The position numbers and the translations under genes were made by a program. A stretch of 51,185 bases of DNA from an uncultured Oscillospiraceae bacterium (lineage in GTDB: Bacteria; Bacillota; Clostridia; Oscillospirales; Oscillospiraceae). This document shows positions 2,283-50,099 of the stretch, piece by piece. The stretch is from assembly GCA_947623875.1 (NCBI GenBank), contig CANQII010000003.1:1-51185 (forward strand). Reading direction: 5' to 3'. The notes below the pieces were generated by a model. That model ran no database searches. It was not told the origin of the DNA and saw only the letters and a program-made list of their open reading frames with translations. How positions within the stretch are numbered: position 1 is the stretch's first letter; every line of letters starts with the position of its first letter.

Positions 2283-3914
<1,632 letters not shown>

Positions 3915-6618: not shown

Positions 6619-6647
6619 TTGACAGTTCCCCTCCCACCTGCTATAAT
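6619..6647 (+). promoter_or_regulatory. tRNA promoter, copy 1
   Basis: TTGACA-N17-TATAAT. Confidence 0.85.
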
Positions 6648-6678
6648 CCGCAATGTTGTGAGCGGCAGGGCGAAAGAT

Positions 6679-6754
6679 GCTGGTGTAGCTCAGCTGGTAG
6701 AGCAGCTGATTTGTAATCAGCAGGTCGGGGGTTCGAATCCGTCCACCAGCTCCA
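6679..6754 (+). tRNA. tRNA-Thr (anticodon TGT), copy 1, CCA encoded
   Basis: Cloverleaf GCTGGTG...CACCAGC T CCA; anticodon loop TTTGTAA; GGTTCGAATCC T-loop. Confidence 0.95.
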
Positions 6755-6771
6755 TACGCTCAACTGAATAC

Positions 6772-6856
6772 GGAAGAGTACCCAAGTGGCCAAAGGGGGC
6801 AGACTGTAAATCTGTTAGCTTCGCTTTCGGTGGTTCGAATCCACCCTCTTCCACCA
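6772..6856 (+). tRNA. tRNA-Tyr (anticodon GTA), copy 1, CCA encoded
   Basis: GGAAGAG...CTCTTCC A CCA; anticodon loop containing CTGTAAA; long variable arm. Confidence 0.95.
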
Positions 6857-7021: not shown

Positions 7022-8263
7022 ATGCTTATTCGCTTTTCTGTTGCAAACTTTAAATCTTTTAAGGATCAAACATCGCTTTATATGGTTGCCGGCAGAACAA
7101 CCCGGCACAGCGGCCACCTCGTTGAAATCAACGGGCAGCGCATTCTAAAGGGCTCCTATCTTTTCGGCGCCAACGCAAGCGGGAAGAGCAATCTCATAGA
7201 AGCAGTGGCATTCGCCCGCGATATTGTTGCCAACGGGCTAGAAGAAGCAGACTGCGACGGGAAATACTTCCGCATTGACGACCAGTACAAGACCAGCCCC
7301 GGCGTTTTTCAGTTCGACTTTCTCTCAAACAACAGGTTTTACTCCTACGGCTTTGCCATTTCTTACGACTCTGCCACAGTAGTGGAAGAGTGGCTGTACG
7401 AGACGGGATCTGAGGAGACCTGTATTTTTCTGCGCCAGAAAGCAGAGAATGGCCAGTCCTACCGCATGGAATCCGAATTTGGTGAAAGTATTGCGAATGA
7501 ACGCTTTCACGTTTATATGTCCGATTTTCGCAGCATGAAGCTCTCCCGAGTGCTCTTTCTGTCCGATGTATCGTCTCGGGCGCCAGACGATGACATTGCC
7601 TTCCGCGCCTTCAAGGACACGTCACAGTGGTTCTCCAAGCTCTCAATCATCTCCCCTGCAGCTGCGATCCGTAATGCTCCGCGCCTGGTCTGCGGCAAAG
7701 GCATGGATTGGACCGGTCTGTTGGACTGCTTTGATACTGGGATTGATGGTGTATCCATCCGGAACATCAAGGATAGAAGTCTCTTAGGCGGCAGGATAGC
7801 CATCGACCACGGAAATCCAAATGATCTCTTCTCTTTCCGGGATGAATCCGAAGGCACAAAGCGGCTTTTTGAACTGATCCCGATCTACTACGTCTGCAGG
7901 AAAGGCGCTGTCGTTTTCGTGGACGAAATAGACAGGAGTCTCCATCCAAACCTGACCAATGAGTTCATCAAGCACTACTACCAGATGTCAGATGGGATTC
8001 CTTGCCAGCTCATTGCCACAGCGCATGATTCCAGTCTCATCAATCTCGATGTCCTCCGTCAGGACGAGATATGGTTTGTGGATCGGAAGCCAGACCACAG
8101 TTCTACGCTCTTTAGCCTGAATCGGTACAAGATACGGTCAGAATGGTCATTGGAAGAAGATTACCTGATTGGCCGCTATGGCGGCGTGCCTGTTTTCAGT
8201 CCGATCCCCCAGATTGAGCCAGATCAAGACGAAGAAGACGCGGGCCGAGGCTTAGCTGCGTGA
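7022..8263 (+). CDS. AAA family ATPase (AAA15 / COG1106, RloA-AbiL-like)
   Basis: LIRFSVANFKSFKDQ N-terminus; Walker A GANASGKSN; Walker B VVFVDEIDRSLHPN; RBS aaggtg before ATG 7022. Confidence 0.88.
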   Translation: MLIRFSVANFKSFKDQTSLYMVAGRTTRHSGHLVEINGQRILKGSYLFGANASGKSNLIEAVAFARDIVANGLEEADCDGKYFRIDDQYKTSPGVFQFDFLSNNRFYSYGFAISYDSATVVEEWLYETGSEETCIFLRQKAENGQSYRMESEFGESIANERFHVYMSDFRSMKLSRVLFLSDVSSRAPDDDIAFRAFKDTSQWFSKLSIISPAAAIRNAPRLVCGKGMDWTGLLDCFDTGIDGVSIRNIKDRSLLGGRIAIDHGNPNDLFSFRDESEGTKRLFELIPIYYVCRKGAVVFVDEIDRSLHPNLTNEFIKHYYQMSDGIPCQLIATAHDSSLINLDVLRQDEIWFVDRKPDHSSTLFSLNRYKIRSEWSLEEDYLIGRYGGVPVFSPIPQIEPDQDEEDAGRGLAA

Positions 8264-8905: not shown

Positions 8906-8934
8906 TTGACAGCCCCGTCCCCACCTGCTATAAT
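8906..8934 (+). promoter_or_regulatory. tRNA promoter, copy 2
   Basis: TTGACA-N17-TATAAT. Confidence 0.85.
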
Positions 8935-8965
8935 CCACCATGTTGTGAGCGGCAGGGCGAAAGAT

Positions 8966-9041
8966 GCTGGTGTAGCTCAGCTGGTAGAGCAGCTGATTTG
9001 TAATCAGCAGGTCGGGGGTTCGAATCCGTCCACCAGCTCCA
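8966..9041 (+). tRNA. tRNA-Thr (TGT), copy 2, CCA encoded
   Basis: Identical in sequence to copy 1. Confidence 0.95.
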
Positions 9042-9058
9042 TACGCTCAACTGAATAC

Positions 9059-9140
9059 GGAAGAGTACCCAAGTGGCCAAAGGGGGCAGACTGTAAATCT
9101 GTTAGCTTCGCTTTCGGTGGTTCGAATCCACCCTCTTCCA
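9059..9140 (+). tRNA. tRNA-Tyr (GTA), copy 2, CCA not encoded (ctg instead)
   Basis: Identical to copy 1 up to the discriminator base, followed by ctg. Confidence 0.95.
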
Positions 9141-9145
9141 CTGTT

Positions 9146-43752: not shown

Positions 43753-43790
43753 TGATATCAATACGATATCACTTTGATTGGCGGTGTCAA
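43753..43790 (-). promoter_or_regulatory. Promoter with palindromic operator TGATATC-N5-GATATCA
   Basis: Perfect 7-5-7 palindrome 43753-43771 overlapping -10 TATCGT; -35 TTGACA (minus strand, 43785-43790), 16-nt spacer. Confidence 0.6.
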
Positions 43791-44102
43791 GAGGGAATTT
43801 TCCAAAAATCGCGGAAAATTTCCGCCGCCGCATCGCCCAGGATGACAAGTATCCCTGTCCTTTTGACAATTTTTCTTGTCTTTTCAGAGAATAGCAGACC
43901 GAAAGAGGGCTGTCAAGAGAGGAATGGAAGATTTGTGAAATCCGGCGGATTTTCGGGGAACTTGCGGAGACGCAGGCCTCCTGCCGGAACCCCGCAGTTC
44001 TCTGTCCTTCTGGTGAAACTTAGCAAAAGTTTGTGCAAAATTCCCTCTTGACCGCTCCCCTCGTTTTCGTCTATGATAGGCCATGGTTTGAGAGACAACA
44101 GA

Positions 44103-44493
44103 CAGAGGAAACCAATATGCCGCTGAAATGCGGTTTTCTTTCAGCATGTGAGTTAGACCTTACTAACTATTTGCCGCATCAGGCCGACAGTGAAAACCGC
44201 TTGTTCCAGGAACAAGCGGTTTTAAGCTGAAATAGTCCAATTTTCCATATCAGATCGACACAGCAGGAGAATTTCCGATGAAGCGCTGAAATCAGCGTTT
44301 TTCTTCCGGTTGTGGGTTAGATACAGCTAATTCAGGTAGCAGTCGCTAATAGCAGTTGCCTTATCTAACTCTCCTGCTACCCGGCAGTTTCTCCCCTGCT
44401 TCATGAGAAACCGGTCTCTGTTTCCCATGGATGCGCCATATTCGTCCGAGGGAAAACAGGTTTTCTTTCAAGCCACGGGTTAGTTGGCGCTAA
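44103..44493 (+). repeat. Array of three diverged ~164-bp units with TTAG-N6-CTAA boxes
   Basis: Boxes at 44153-44166, 44317-44330, 44480-44493; each TTAG lies 19 nt after the start of a T-tract following a small hairpin. Confidence 0.65.
44193..44224 (+). terminator. Terminator within the leader array
   Basis: AAAACCGCTTGTT-ccagg-AACAAGCGGTTTT. Confidence 0.8.
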
Positions 44494-45454: not shown

Positions 45455-45948
45455 TGAATTGGGCGAGGATCGTGCTGGACGGCCTGGCAATGGGTGTGGT
45501 GTTCAATGTGTCCACCGCGCTGCTGTGGACGATTGCACCCACCGCCTTTTCCCAGATGATGCCGAAGGAGATCCGAAACACTGCCCCGAAGATGACGCGG
45601 AGCGATCTCGCTGTACTGGCAGGGCTGCATCTCATGCAGCTGCTGGTTATCGTGTACATGGCCCTGAGTGCCATCAATGCCGGCATCCGCGGCTTCTGGC
45701 CTCTGTTTTGGACGGCGTATCTCGAGATGCTGTTCGTCTCCTTCGGCGACCTCATCGGGCTGGACGGCTTCTTCCGCGCCTATGTGTGTAAGCATGGACT
45801 TGTACCTCCTGGCACTGCGCAGTGCAATGCCTGGCATCTGAAAACGTGGATGCTCACGCTGGCGCTGCCGGAACATTTATTGGGCTGGCCGCTGTTTCTC
45901 TGTCCGCTGGCCGGCCTCATCGCGGCAGGCATCGGCATGCTGCGCTAA
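45454..45948 (+). CDS. Hypothetical membrane protein
   Basis: TAATG overlap with the hydrolase; four or so hydrophobic segments. Confidence 0.7.
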   Translation: MNWARIVLDGLAMGVVFNVSTALLWTIAPTAFSQMMPKEIRNTAPKMTRSDLAVLAGLHLMQLLVIVYMALSAINAGIRGFWPLFWTAYLEMLFVSFGDLIGLDGFFRAYVCKHGLVPPGTAQCNAWHLKTWMLTLALPEHLLGWPLFLCPLAGLIAAGIGMLR

Positions 45949-46043: not shown

Positions 46044-46301
46044 ATGAACAAGATCACACTGAAAATAGACGGCATGATGTGCGGGATGTGCGAGGCCCAT
46101 GTGAACGACGCCGTCCGCAAGGCATTTCCGGTGAAGAAGGTCTCCTCCTCCCACACCAAGGGCGAGACGGAGATCCTCACAGAGCAGCCCATAGACGAGG
46201 CAAAGCTCCGGGCGGCCATCGACGCCACCGGATACAAGGTGCTGTCTGTGCAGAGCGAGCCCTACGAGAAGAAGGGCCTGTTCGGATTTCTGCACGGATA
46301 A
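46044..46301 (+). CDS. Heavy-metal-associated (HMA) domain protein
   Basis: ITLKIDGMMCGMCEAHVNDAVRKAF...IDATGYKVLSV. Confidence 0.92.
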   Translation: MNKITLKIDGMMCGMCEAHVNDAVRKAFPVKKVSSSHTKGETEILTEQPIDEAKLRAAIDATGYKVLSVQSEPYEKKGLFGFLHG

Positions 46302-46363: not shown

Positions 46364-48103
46364 ATGATGATAGACAAACGGCTCCTGGCGCTGGCGCCGG
46401 AGAGCAAAAAGTACATCGCCGGCAATGTATTGCTGCAGTGGCTGTCTCTGGTGACCAACATCGCCCTTATGACAGCTCTCACTTCCCTTCTGGCGGGGTT
46501 ATTCCAGCGCACTGCCGGCACCCAGCAGATCACCACTGTGCTCATCATCGCGGTGGTCTGCCTGGTAGTCCGGTTTCTCTGCACCACCGGGGCCAGCCGG
46601 ATGAGCTACCTCTCCAGCAAGGCGGTGAAGAAGACCCTGCGGGAGAAAATCTACGGCAAGCTGCTGCGGCTGGGCGCCTCGTACCACGAGCAGGTGGCCA
46701 CCTCTGAGGTGGTCCAGGTATCTGTGGAGGGCGTAGAGCAGCTGGAGACCTATTTCGGCGCCTATCTGCCCCAGTTCTTCTATGCCATGCTGGCGCCCCT
46801 CACTCTCTTCGTCTACTTGAGCTTCATCAGCCTTCCCTCGGCCATCGTACTGCTGATCTGCGTGCCGCTGATCCCCGTCTCCATCGCAGCGGTACAGACC
46901 TGGGCCAAGAAGCTGCTGTCCAAGTACTGGGGGCAGTACACCGCCCTGGGCGATACCTTCCTGGAGAACCTGCAGGGGCTCACCACCTTGAAGATCTACC
47001 AGTCTGATGGCTTCAAAAACGAGGAGATGAACGAAGAGGCGGAGAAGTTCCGGAAGATCACCATGAAGGTGCTCACCATGCAGCTAAACTCCATCACCAT
47101 CATGGACCTCATCGCATACGGCGGCGCGGCCCTGGGCGTGATCCTGGCCACCACCCAGATGCGGGCGGGCAAGATCGACATGGCAGGGGCACTTCTCATC
47201 ATCCTTCTCTCCGCAGACTTCTTCCTCCCCATGCGGCAGCTGGGCTCCTTCTTCCATGTGGCCATGAACGGCATGGCGGCCAGCGGCAAGATCTTCCACC
47301 TGCTGGACCTCCCGGAGCCAGCAGAACAGACGAAGCCCATGCCGGCAGACTGCACCATCGCCTGCAGAGACCTTCACTTCGCCTACGATCCTCAGCGGGA
47401 GGTACTCCACGGGCTGGACCTGGACCTTCCCAAGGGCAGCTTTACCGCCATCGTGGGAGACAGCGGCTGCGGCAAGTCCACGGTGGCCGGCATTCTCATG
47501 GGCCGCAACCGGGGCTACACCGGAACCGTAACTGTAGGCGGCACGGAGCTCTCCGTGATCCAGGAGGCATCCCTCCTCCAGAACATCACCTATGTGGGCC
47601 ACCAGAGCTATCTCTTCCAGGGCACCGTCCGGGATAACCTTCTCATAGGCAATCCCAAGGCGGACGATGCCGCTCTCTGGGCGGTGCTGGAGCGGGCCAA
47701 ACTGGCGGACTTTCTCCGGGCGGAGCAGGGGCTGGACACGCAGCTTCTGGAGCAGGCTTCCAACCTCTCCGGCGGCCAGCGGCAGCGCCTGGCGCTGGCC
47801 CGGGCCCTTCTCCACAATAGCCCCGTGTACATCTTCGATGAGGCCACCTCCAACATCGATGTGGAGAGCGAGAACGACATCATGCAGGAGATCCACCGGC
47901 TGGCCAAAACCAAGACCATTCTGCTGATCTCCCACCGCCTCGCCAACGGGGCGGCGGCAGACAAGATCTATGTGATGGAGGGCGGGTCTGTGGTGGAGTC
48001 CGGCACCCATACCACATTACTGGCCCGCAATGGCGTCTACGCCAGGCTCTGGAATACCCAGCAAGCCCTGGAACACTACGGAGAGGAGGGGAGCATCGCA
48101 TGA
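46364..48103 (+). CDS. ABC transporter, fused permease/ATPase (heterodimer subunit 1)
   Basis: N-terminal TMD; GDSGCGKSTVAGILMG; LSGGQRQRLALARALL. Confidence 0.93.
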   Translation: MMIDKRLLALAPESKKYIAGNVLLQWLSLVTNIALMTALTSLLAGLFQRTAGTQQITTVLIIAVVCLVVRFLCTTGASRMSYLSSKAVKKTLREKIYGKLLRLGASYHEQVATSEVVQVSVEGVEQLETYFGAYLPQFFYAMLAPLTLFVYLSFISLPSAIVLLICVPLIPVSIAAVQTWAKKLLSKYWGQYTALGDTFLENLQGLTTLKIYQSDGFKNEEMNEEAEKFRKITMKVLTMQLNSITIMDLIAYGGAALGVILATTQMRAGKIDMAGALLIILLSADFFLPMRQLGSFFHVAMNGMAASGKIFHLLDLPEPAEQTKPMPADCTIACRDLHFAYDPQREVLHGLDLDLPKGSFTAIVGDSGCGKSTVAGILMGRNRGYTGTVTVGGTELSVIQEASLLQNITYVGHQSYLFQGTVRDNLLIGNPKADDAALWAVLERAKLADFLRAEQGLDTQLLEQASNLSGGQRQRLALARALLHNSPVYIFDEATSNIDVESENDIMQEIHRLAKTKTILLISHRLANGAAADKIYVMEGGSVVESGTHTTLLARNGVYARLWNTQQALEHYGEEGSIA

Positions 48104-49758
48104 AACGGAGAAGCGGATTTGTGGTGATGGCCCGGCTGATCGGCCTGGTACGTCCCCTCACGGGCTTCATGCTTCTCGCCATCACCATGGGCCTCATCGG
48201 CAACCTCTGCGCGTCCTTTATCACCATCTTCGGCGGCTATGCCGTGCTGAACGTCCTGGGGTTCTCCTCTCCCCTGCCCTTGGGCGGCATCTTCGCCGTG
48301 GTACTGGTCTTCGCCCTCGTCCGGGGCGTTCTCCGGTACGCCGAGCAGTCCTGCAACCACTTCATCGCCTTCAAGCTGCTGGCCATCATCCGGGACAAGG
48401 TGTTTCAGGCTCTCCGGAAGCTCTGCCCCGCCAAACTGGAGGGCCGCAACCGGGGCGATTTGATCTCGGTGATCACCTCCGATATCGAGCTTCTGGAGGT
48501 CTTCTATGCCCACACCATCTCCCCCATCGCCATCGCAACCCTCTTCACCCTGGTGATGTGTCTCTTTATCGGCTCCTTCCACTGGACGCTGGGTCTTCTC
48601 GCCCTCTGCGCCTATGCGGTGGTGGGGATTGTGATCCCCCTCATCACCTCCAGGCTCAGCGGAGACACCGGCATGGTGTTCCGCACCCAGTCTGGCGCCC
48701 TCTCCAGCTTTGTCCTGGACAGCCTTCGAGGCCTCTCTGAGACCCTGCAGTACGGGCAGGGACAGCAGCGGCTTGCGGAAATGAACCGCCGGACAGACGA
48801 GCTCTCCGCCGAGGAGTCCAAGATGAAGAAGACCGCCGGTAGAAACGGCGCGGTTACCAACACCACCATTCTGATCTTTGATCTCATCATGCTCTTTGCC
48901 AGCACCTCCCTCTATCAGGCGGGCGCCCTCTCCTTTGACGGCGTTCTCATCCCCACCATCGCCCTCTTCTCCTCCTTTGGCCCGGCGGTGGCTCTCGCCG
49001 CCCTCGGCAGCACCCTGCAGAACACCTTTGCCGCCGGCAATCGGGTACTGGACATTCTGGACGACACCCCGGTGGTGCAGGAGGTGTCCAGCATGCCACC
49101 GGTGTCCTTCCAAAACGCCTCTGCAGATCACGTCTTCTTCTCCTATGGCGGCGAGGAAGTGCTGCAGGATGTGTCCGTTACGGTACCGGAAGGACAGATC
49201 GTGGGCATCCAGGGCAAGAGCGGCAGCGGCAAGTCCACCCTTCTGAAGCTGATGATGCGCTTCTGGGATGTACAGAAGGGCAGCGTGAAGGTGTCCGGCA
49301 TCCCGGTGGCGGAGATCAACACCGCCAACCTCCGGGAAATGGAGAGCTTCGTCACCCAGGAGACCCACCTCTTCCACGACAGCATCAAGCGGAACCTCCG
49401 CATCGCCAAGTTGGATGCCACAGATGAGGAGATCGAGGCTGCCTGCAAGAAGGCCTCTGTCCATGACTTCATCCTCACCCTCCCCCAGGGCTACGACACC
49501 CCCGTAGGCGAGCTGGGAGACACCCTCTCCGGCGGAGAGCGGCAGCGGCTGGGTCTCGCCAGAGCCTTTCTCCACGACGCCCCGCTGATGCTGCTGGATG
49601 AGCCCACCAGCAACCTGGACAGCCTCAACGAGGCGGTGATCCTGAAGTCCCTCCGGGAGGAGCGGGACAAGAAGACTGTGGTGCTGGTTTCCCACCGGGC
49701 CTCCACCATGCGCATTGCAGACCAGGTGATCTCCGTAGAGAGCGGGAGGGTGTGCTGA
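48100..49758 (+). CDS. ABC transporter, fused permease/ATPase (heterodimer subunit 2)
   Basis: GKSGSGKSTLLKLMMRF; LSGGERQRLGLARAFL; ATGA overlap with subunit 1. Confidence 0.93.
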   Translation: MKRRSGFVVMARLIGLVRPLTGFMLLAITMGLIGNLCASFITIFGGYAVLNVLGFSSPLPLGGIFAVVLVFALVRGVLRYAEQSCNHFIAFKLLAIIRDKVFQALRKLCPAKLEGRNRGDLISVITSDIELLEVFYAHTISPIAIATLFTLVMCLFIGSFHWTLGLLALCAYAVVGIVIPLITSRLSGDTGMVFRTQSGALSSFVLDSLRGLSETLQYGQGQQRLAEMNRRTDELSAEESKMKKTAGRNGAVTNTTILIFDLIMLFASTSLYQAGALSFDGVLIPTIALFSSFGPAVALAALGSTLQNTFAAGNRVLDILDDTPVVQEVSSMPPVSFQNASADHVFFSYGGEEVLQDVSVTVPEGQIVGIQGKSGSGKSTLLKLMMRFWDVQKGSVKVSGIPVAEINTANLREMESFVTQETHLFHDSIKRNLRIAKLDATDEEIEAACKKASVHDFILTLPQGYDTPVGELGDTLSGGERQRLGLARAFLHDAPLMLLDEPTSNLDSLNEAVILKSLREERDKKTVVLVSHRASTMRIADQVISVESGRVC

Positions 49759-50099
49759 TGGACGTCCAGACAAAACGGGAGCGGGAGAAGGCCATGGTCT
49801 CCCAGATGATTGCCCTATACTGCAAGGGCAACCACGGCACCAAGAAGGGCCAGCTCTGCCCGGAATGCACCGCTCTCACCCAGTACGCCTGCCAGCGCTG
49901 CGATAAGTGCCCCTTTATGGAGAATAAGACCTTCTGCTCCAACTGCAAAGTCCACTGCTACAAGCCGGAGATGCGGGAAAAGATCCGGGCGGTGATGCGG
50001 TGGAGCGGCCCCAGAATGATATTCCACGCCCCCATTCCCGCCATCCGCCACGTCCTGGAGACCCGGCGAGAACAAAAACGATTGGAGCTTGCCAAATGA
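49758..50099 (+). CDS. Nitrous oxide-stimulated promoter family protein (Cys-rich)
   Basis: MIALYCKGNHGTKKGQLCPECTALTQYACQRCDKCPF...FCSNCKVHCYKPEMREKIRAVMRWSGPRMIFHAP. Confidence 0.85.
   Translation: MDVQTKREREKAMVSQMIALYCKGNHGTKKGQLCPECTALTQYACQRCDKCPFMENKTFCSNCKVHCYKPEMREKIRAVMRWSGPRMIFHAPIPAIRHVLETRREQKRLELAK

Follow-up and report, generated by a model that had tools for sequence, protein, structure and literature searches.

Repressors are usually taught as acting on transcription initiation, and intrinsic terminators as being switched by RNA. The 19-bp consensus of DtxR/IdeR operators, TTAGGTTAGCCTAACCTAA, contains the inverted repeat TTAG-N6-CTAA and is readable as two sites offset by 5 bp. 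We take YtgR of Chlamydia trachomatis to be a member of the DtxR family. In iron-replete cells, YtgR ends upstream transcripts in the trpRBA intergenic region (PMC6504234). An iron-dependent repressor bound between genes thus serves there as an attenuator, a role similar to the one proposed below. In contrast to the boxes described here, the portion of that report available to us deals with a single locus, describes neither a hairpin nor a fixed spacing, and has YtgR also repress an internal promoter (PMC6504234), whereas the terminator-operator pair of the Clostridia appears to be a recurrent module at which no promoter was detected.

Bacterial repressor roadblocks are already known (PMC10310618), including an iron-dependent one by the same kind of repressor. 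PurR, GalR, ArsR, CcpA, CodY, and C.Kpn2I, bound 3' of the transcription start, block elongation (PMC10310618, PMC6237814), as we infer for the present boxes, but no conserved intrinsic terminator at a set distance is described for them in the accessible parts of these sources. The 3' end of rRNA made by RNA polymerase I has the same succession of a hairpin, a T-rich stretch, and then a DNA-bound roadblock (Reb1/Nsi1), which in the present case is a predicted one (PMC12366685). RNA polymerase I halts 15 bp before the Reb1/Nsi1 site, and release requires the RNA hairpin (PMC12366685). That system is eukaryotic and constitutive, its hairpin lies at a distance of 20 nt from the stop, and its backtracking is deep (PMC12366685), whereas the module in the Clostridia is bacterial, lies at gene starts, and is presumably conditional.

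Riboswitch, T-box, and TRAP attenuators tie the use of a leader terminator to a nutrient signal, as is also proposed here; however, they act via the nascent RNA, either at the terminator or 5' of it, whereas the candidate sensor site in the present case is DNA downstream of it. A recurrent intrinsic terminator at a fixed distance before an operator was not found in the open-access papers searched, in which little was found on iron control in gut Clostridia.

Three terminator-box units in the leader of a hydrolase-HMA-ABC operon

The window, by which we mean the whole 51,185-nt stretch of DNA that was analysed, contained three matches to TTAG-N6-CTAA, against a mean of 0.06 expected from 100 dinucleotide shuffles, none of which reached three. 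An earlier note on this DNA had listed the same three boxes at the same positions, 164 and then 163 bp apart, and no further match was found in the window. Features of the leader and of the operon behind it were as follows.

44048..44077, + strand: sigma-70-type promoter TTGACC-N18-TATGAT (10 of 12 consensus matches; consensus match only)
44120..44142, + strand: unit 1 hairpin CCGC-TGAAAT-GCGG (44120-44133) and T-tract from 44134 (folding, terminator scan)
44153..44166, + strand: unit 1 box TTAG-ACCTTA-CTAA, probable DtxR-family operator
44193..44223, no strand assigned: additional strong hairpin, after box 1 and before box 2 (perfect arms of 15 bp, 1 nt apart)
44284..44305, + strand: unit 2 hairpin CGCTG-AAAT-CAGCG (44284-44297) and T-tract from 44298 (folding)
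44317..44330, + strand: unit 2 box TTAG-ATACAG-CTAA (pattern match)
44452..44468, + strand: unit 3 weak A/T hairpin around GAAAACAGGTTTTC and T-tract from 44461 (folding)
44480..44493, + strand: unit 3 box TTAG-TTGGCG-CTAA, 60 nt 5' of the hydrolase start codon
44540..45454, + strand: gene 1, alpha/beta hydrolase, BAAT_C family
45457..45948, + strand: gene 2, membrane protein without Pfam match
46044..46301, + strand: HMA-domain protein
46364..48103, + strand: ABC half-transporter, used as query for 80 related loci
48100..49758, + strand: second ABC half-transporter
49752..50099, + strand: YgbA_NO family protein

With a transcription start at about 44084, the boxes would lie at about +69, +233, and +396 of the leader, whose own promoter is without a box at +1. 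In all three units, TTAG followed exactly 19 nt after the start of the T-tract (44134, 44298, and 44461), as the earlier note had read it. Its claim of a short hairpin before each T-tract was borne out for units 1 and 2, which folded into genuine short GC stems (unit 1 was also caught by the terminator scan), but not for unit 3, where the proposed stem with a 2-nt loop cannot form. An alternative fold of unit 3 has an A/T-rich stem, a CAGG loop, and a 3' arm made of the unit's own T-tract, and is therefore a weak or decayed terminator. A GC hairpin followed by a sense-strand T-tract, as in intrinsic terminators, was thus present in units 1 and 2 and weak in unit 3. The strong hairpin at 44193-44223 has no box behind it. 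Three terminator-box modules in series are the special feature of the window.

The earlier note had alternatively suggested triplicated leaders with decayed ORFs. Alignment of units 1 and 2 scored above background (z 3.8, relative to mononucleotide shuffles only), that of units 1 and 3 was at background level, and the value for units 2 and 3 was an end-overlap artefact. A tandem triplication was dropped, since units 1-2 alone exceeded the shuffles; a duplication origin is weakly supported, and for these two units only. An ATG is present in each unit, but the ATG-containing segment described in the earlier note had no counterpart common to the leaders of relatives that were read, and neither had any leader ORF. 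In unit 1, an open frame is accompanied by a possible ribosome site; unit 2 has merely ATG-AAG-CGC-TGA, and no clear ribosome-binding site was found in unit 3. A leader-peptide or decayed-ORF reading was dropped, as nothing comparable was seen in the relatives read. Although units 1 and 2 are partly alike and each unit has its ATG, boxes that are functionless relics of tandem leaders are scarcely credible: box number and position class are conserved across genera, and the units have no ORF in common.

Boxes at iron genes of the same genome

The assembly that includes the window (392 contigs, 75% complete) contained 16 exact boxes. Apart from the three of the window, a locus encoding a DtxR-family regulator, a P-type ATPase, and FeoA has four, and a feoA-feoA-feoB locus has three; among the remaining six, a single repeat found near contig ends accounts for four, and the other two were left out of the analysis. 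Recurrence at feo genes and at a DtxR-family gene, suggested as a check in the earlier note, was therefore found within one genome. The box between feoA and feoB has a hairpin, ACGGCGGAGACGCCGT-TCTTTTC, 19 nt before it. Over the whole genome, the bare 8-base pattern was not enriched (16 matches, 30 for the reversed control); the extended form GTTAG-N6-CTAAY occurred 12 times, against 2 for its reversed control. Enrichment in this genome is limited to the extended form and to clustering. The encoded DtxR-type protein (G000:C6:4315-4698) matched Fe_dep_repr_C with an E-value of 5e-15, and its nearest solved relatives include MntR, ScaR, and IdeR.

Two further observations were made on the contig region with the regulator (L016, G000:C6). 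Short repeats like 'tattcccctcgcgagaggggtggattgaaa' at about 3600-3780, resembling the end of a CRISPR array, adjoin the DtxR-regulator/P-ATPase/feoA locus just upstream. Behind feoA, at 7773-7960, a box precedes a short remnant that resembles the hydrolase of the window (QLECSAFNWRV), giving the impression that the leader and the beginning of the hydrolase were copied to this place.

The box as operator of a predicted iron regulon

Across 151 genomes of the family, GTTAG-N6-CTAAY was found 679 times against 228 for the reversed control, with counts above the control in 102 genomes and below it in 32; a DtxR-type homologue was encoded in 137. Around the 80 homologues of the ABC gene (0.89 Mb, from Lachnospiraceae, Oscillospiraceae, and relatives), 134 boxes were counted against 18 controls. 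The upstream regions of ABC and feoB genes (107 in total) held 142 exact boxes and a single reversed control; these 142 had the 6-nt spacer, and any other spacer length gave 0-12 matches. The extended box was enriched in some families of the Clostridia and not in others, and its universality in the class was therefore dropped as a claim.

Features of a DtxR-family operator were found on three counts: the box is a TTAG/CTAA inverted repeat with exact halves and a spacer of 6 only, it lies at iron/manganese genes (feoA, feoB, DtxR, ABC, NEAT, and HMA genes), and the genome encodes a DtxR-family protein. By its context, the box is an operator of what is probably an iron regulon, and a DtxR-type protein is predicted to bind TTAG-N6-CTAA. 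In comparison with DtxR/IdeR operators, the sites described here are single and frequently separated by 34 or ~45 bp, and terminator-linked boxes are about as many as promoter-linked ones.

Since the box is able to fold in RNA, a GUUAG-N6-CUAAC hairpin in the nascent transcript might instead sense metal or bind a protein. Base changes in the boxes of the 107 upstream regions, whether single or paired, were however rare and not compensated, which indicated a DNA operator and not an RNA stem. In addition, the 6-nt spacer is invariant, the box is also found directly at promoter start sites, and, lying 3' of the terminator, it would be transcribed too late to control that terminator as RNA. No Rfam match above the gathering score was obtained for the window and 12 related loci, except for tRNA and a group II intron, and a known riboswitch or leader RNA was dropped as a candidate. 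An RNA element is accordingly a very improbable account of the box.

Paired boxes were seen at several loci. At five feoA promoters (L107, L117, L125, L128, L150), the boxes of a pair are 34 bp apart, and in ABC leaders about 45 bp. These distances correspond to roughly three and four helical turns, which suggests dimers on one face of the DNA. The first box of a pair can also fold as a hairpin ahead of the second.

Two box contexts and a fixed terminator-box geometry

Boxes occurred in two nearly exclusive contexts. In class P, the -10 hexamer of a sigma-70 promoter typically starts 14-17 nt before TTAG, so that the box covers the start site. In class T, no promoter was detected, and an intrinsic-terminator-like hairpin with a T-tract directly precedes the box. 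The sense-side T-tract start peaked 17-19 nt before TTAG, and T-tracts were far rarer at other offsets, on the opposite strand, or when the position was displaced by 120-300 bp. The same peak was seen in independently fetched feoB loci with the module between feoA and feoB, and other families of the Clostridia again showed a peak, at 18 nt.

Relative to the orientation of the downstream gene, the terminator was on the sense side of 68 boxes and on the antisense side of 9. Removal of hairpins that overlapped a neighbouring box (23 of the 68, about a third) gave a strict set of 45 sense against 8 antisense cases (p 2.4e-7). In 36 of these 45, which span 41 clusters of unlike sequence, the T-tract started 17-19 nt before the box (p 6e-12, ten allowed offsets). 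At the level of sequence, these results showed a recurrent terminator-box pairing with fixed geometry and orientation. Boxes and T-tract/box spacing, on whose conservation the earlier note had made its reading depend, were kept in homologous loci. Its proposal that several copies of a metal-responsive operator/attenuator are arrayed ahead of the hydrolase-HMA-ABC operon is thereby supported, with iron as the predicted signal.

An open frame ended just upstream in 49 of 101 class-T cases and the promoter-linked class certainly exists, as would be expected if the hairpins terminated upstream transcripts and the boxes repressed separate promoters of the downstream genes. However, terminator and promoter occurred together at only 1 of 214 boxes (Fisher p 3.5e-10), class-T boxes mostly lie immediately ahead of the ribosome site, 30-60 nt 5' of the start codon, and leader hairpins sit between a promoter and its own gene. 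As the constancy of the 17-19 nt distance would also be left unexplained, such a division of roles is quite improbable.

Class-T boxes were followed by genes for FeoB, FeoA, exporter-type ABC proteins, a NEAT-domain protein, and HMA proteins, as well as for Trep_Strep membrane proteins, DUF3793 proteins, methyltransferases, and DtxR-type regulators. DUF3793 and Trep_Strep proteins could have iron-related functions. Iron islands of ~20-30 kb with many boxes were observed in some relatives; those at L230-L238 (G144:C2, G022:C12, G146:C179, G066:C7, G104:C7) have several boxes each and include DUF3793, Trep_Strep, and paired ABC genes.

Covariation in the hairpin and near-invariance of the box

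Covariation was analysed in 23 ABC leaders of one type, in which box 1 contains the terminator's 5' arm and box 2 comes after the T-tract. Pairing-preserving two-sided changes were found in six of seven pairs of the leader hairpin, with 30 such cells against 8.5 in shuffles (0/500), a control that is somewhat favourable because the RNAalifold pair register was drawn from the alignment under test. The base pairs first guessed for this hairpin were mis-registered, showed no covariation, and were discarded in favour of the RNAalifold register. A possible stem in box 2 had four invariant pairs and one pair changing on one side only. With a covarying hairpin and a near-invariant box, the two are apparently under different selection: the hairpin appears to be conserved as RNA and the box as DNA sequence.

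Class-T T-tracts were T-rich over 8 positions and then fell off sharply, like those of ordinary intrinsic terminators, in a set that was chosen on those same 8 positions. In T count and folding energy, their U-tracts were no weaker than those of ordinary 3' terminators picked with the same thresholds. The idea of unusually weak class-T terminators was consequently dropped, and considerable iron-free readthrough must be assumed.

A box-bound repressor might also stop elongation by itself, with Mfd or Rho removing the stalled polymerase and the hairpin merely stabilising the 3' end of the shortened RNA or restraining backtracking. PurR, GalR, ArsR, CcpA, and CodY act without a hairpin and Mfd is the main release factor for bacterial repressor blocks (PMC10310618, PMC4132739), while the accessible text on YtgR likewise describes no hairpin (PMC6504234). 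At the chosen thresholds, 91 of the 214 boxes had neither terminator nor promoter, which is consistent with such a plain roadblock. A covarying full hairpin with an 8-nt T-tract at a set distance nevertheless exceeds what a roadblock needs, and we consider this explanation unlikely.

Proposed mechanism of iron-dependent attenuation

If a terminator separates a gene from its promoter, or feoB from feoA, expression of that gene requires termination to be conditional or leaky. The candidate control site lies 3' of the terminator, at a distance from which a protein bound to it would halt polymerase in the vicinity of the U-tract. In view of the RNA polymerase I and YtgR precedents, repressor-gated intrinsic termination is therefore proposed. 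That a DtxR-family repressor on the box gates the preceding terminator in response to iron is, in our judgement, fairly probable; the regulator's identity, the iron dependence, the roadblock, and the raised termination are those that we infer from the arrangement of the sites.

GTTAG-N6-CTAAY would act as a single-dimer operator for an iron-responsive repressor of the DtxR/MntR family that controls iron-uptake genes. When iron is plentiful, metal-loaded repressor would occupy the box and halt the incoming polymerase just past the hairpin, at a point where the active site is within the U-tract, leading to transcript release. When iron is scarce, an empty box would allow readthrough of the modest terminators into the operon. 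The three modules in series behind one promoter in the window may form a tighter gate.

A stop 15 bp before the box, as for RNA polymerase I, would place the RNA 3' end ~2-4 nt into the U-tract. The usual distance from hairpin to RNA end at release is ~8 nt. The 3' end would thus fall short of the point at which release normally occurs, which makes both the sign and the efficiency of the effect uncertain. Release needs forward translocation (PMC3913778), which a bound repressor could hinder. A smaller protein footprint, pushing by polymerase, or Mfd might ease this problem of register.

The recurrence of the terminator-box pairing at iron-uptake genes across gut Clostridia suggests that the repressor may set where polymerase stops, and not solely where transcription begins. 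If the proposed attenuation is correct, the module would link an RNA terminator with a metal sensor that binds DNA, enable promoter-free regulation inside operons (e.g., of feoB after feoA), account for iron control in abundant gut Clostridia, and represent a predicted equivalent, in bacteria, of the way in which RNA polymerase I terminates with a hairpin plus a roadblock. For the wider proposition that operator-gated intrinsic terminators, in which a metal repressor and an RNA hairpin would jointly end transcription at the 17-19 nt spacing, are a distinct, widespread class and a main mode of iron regulation in gut Clostridia, possibly with other repressors elsewhere, the case appears evenly balanced.

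Other repeats in the window

The upstream ABC exporter genes and the hydrolase operon have divergent promoters with an inverted repeat in common, GTCAAGAGGGAATTTT...AAAATTCCCTCTTGAC (43786-43808 and 44030-44052), in which both -35 regions are included. Elsewhere in the window, a 236-bp block with tRNA-Thr and tRNA-Tyr is duplicated at 6619-6854 and 8906-9141, the copies being 2287 bp apart and 97% identical.
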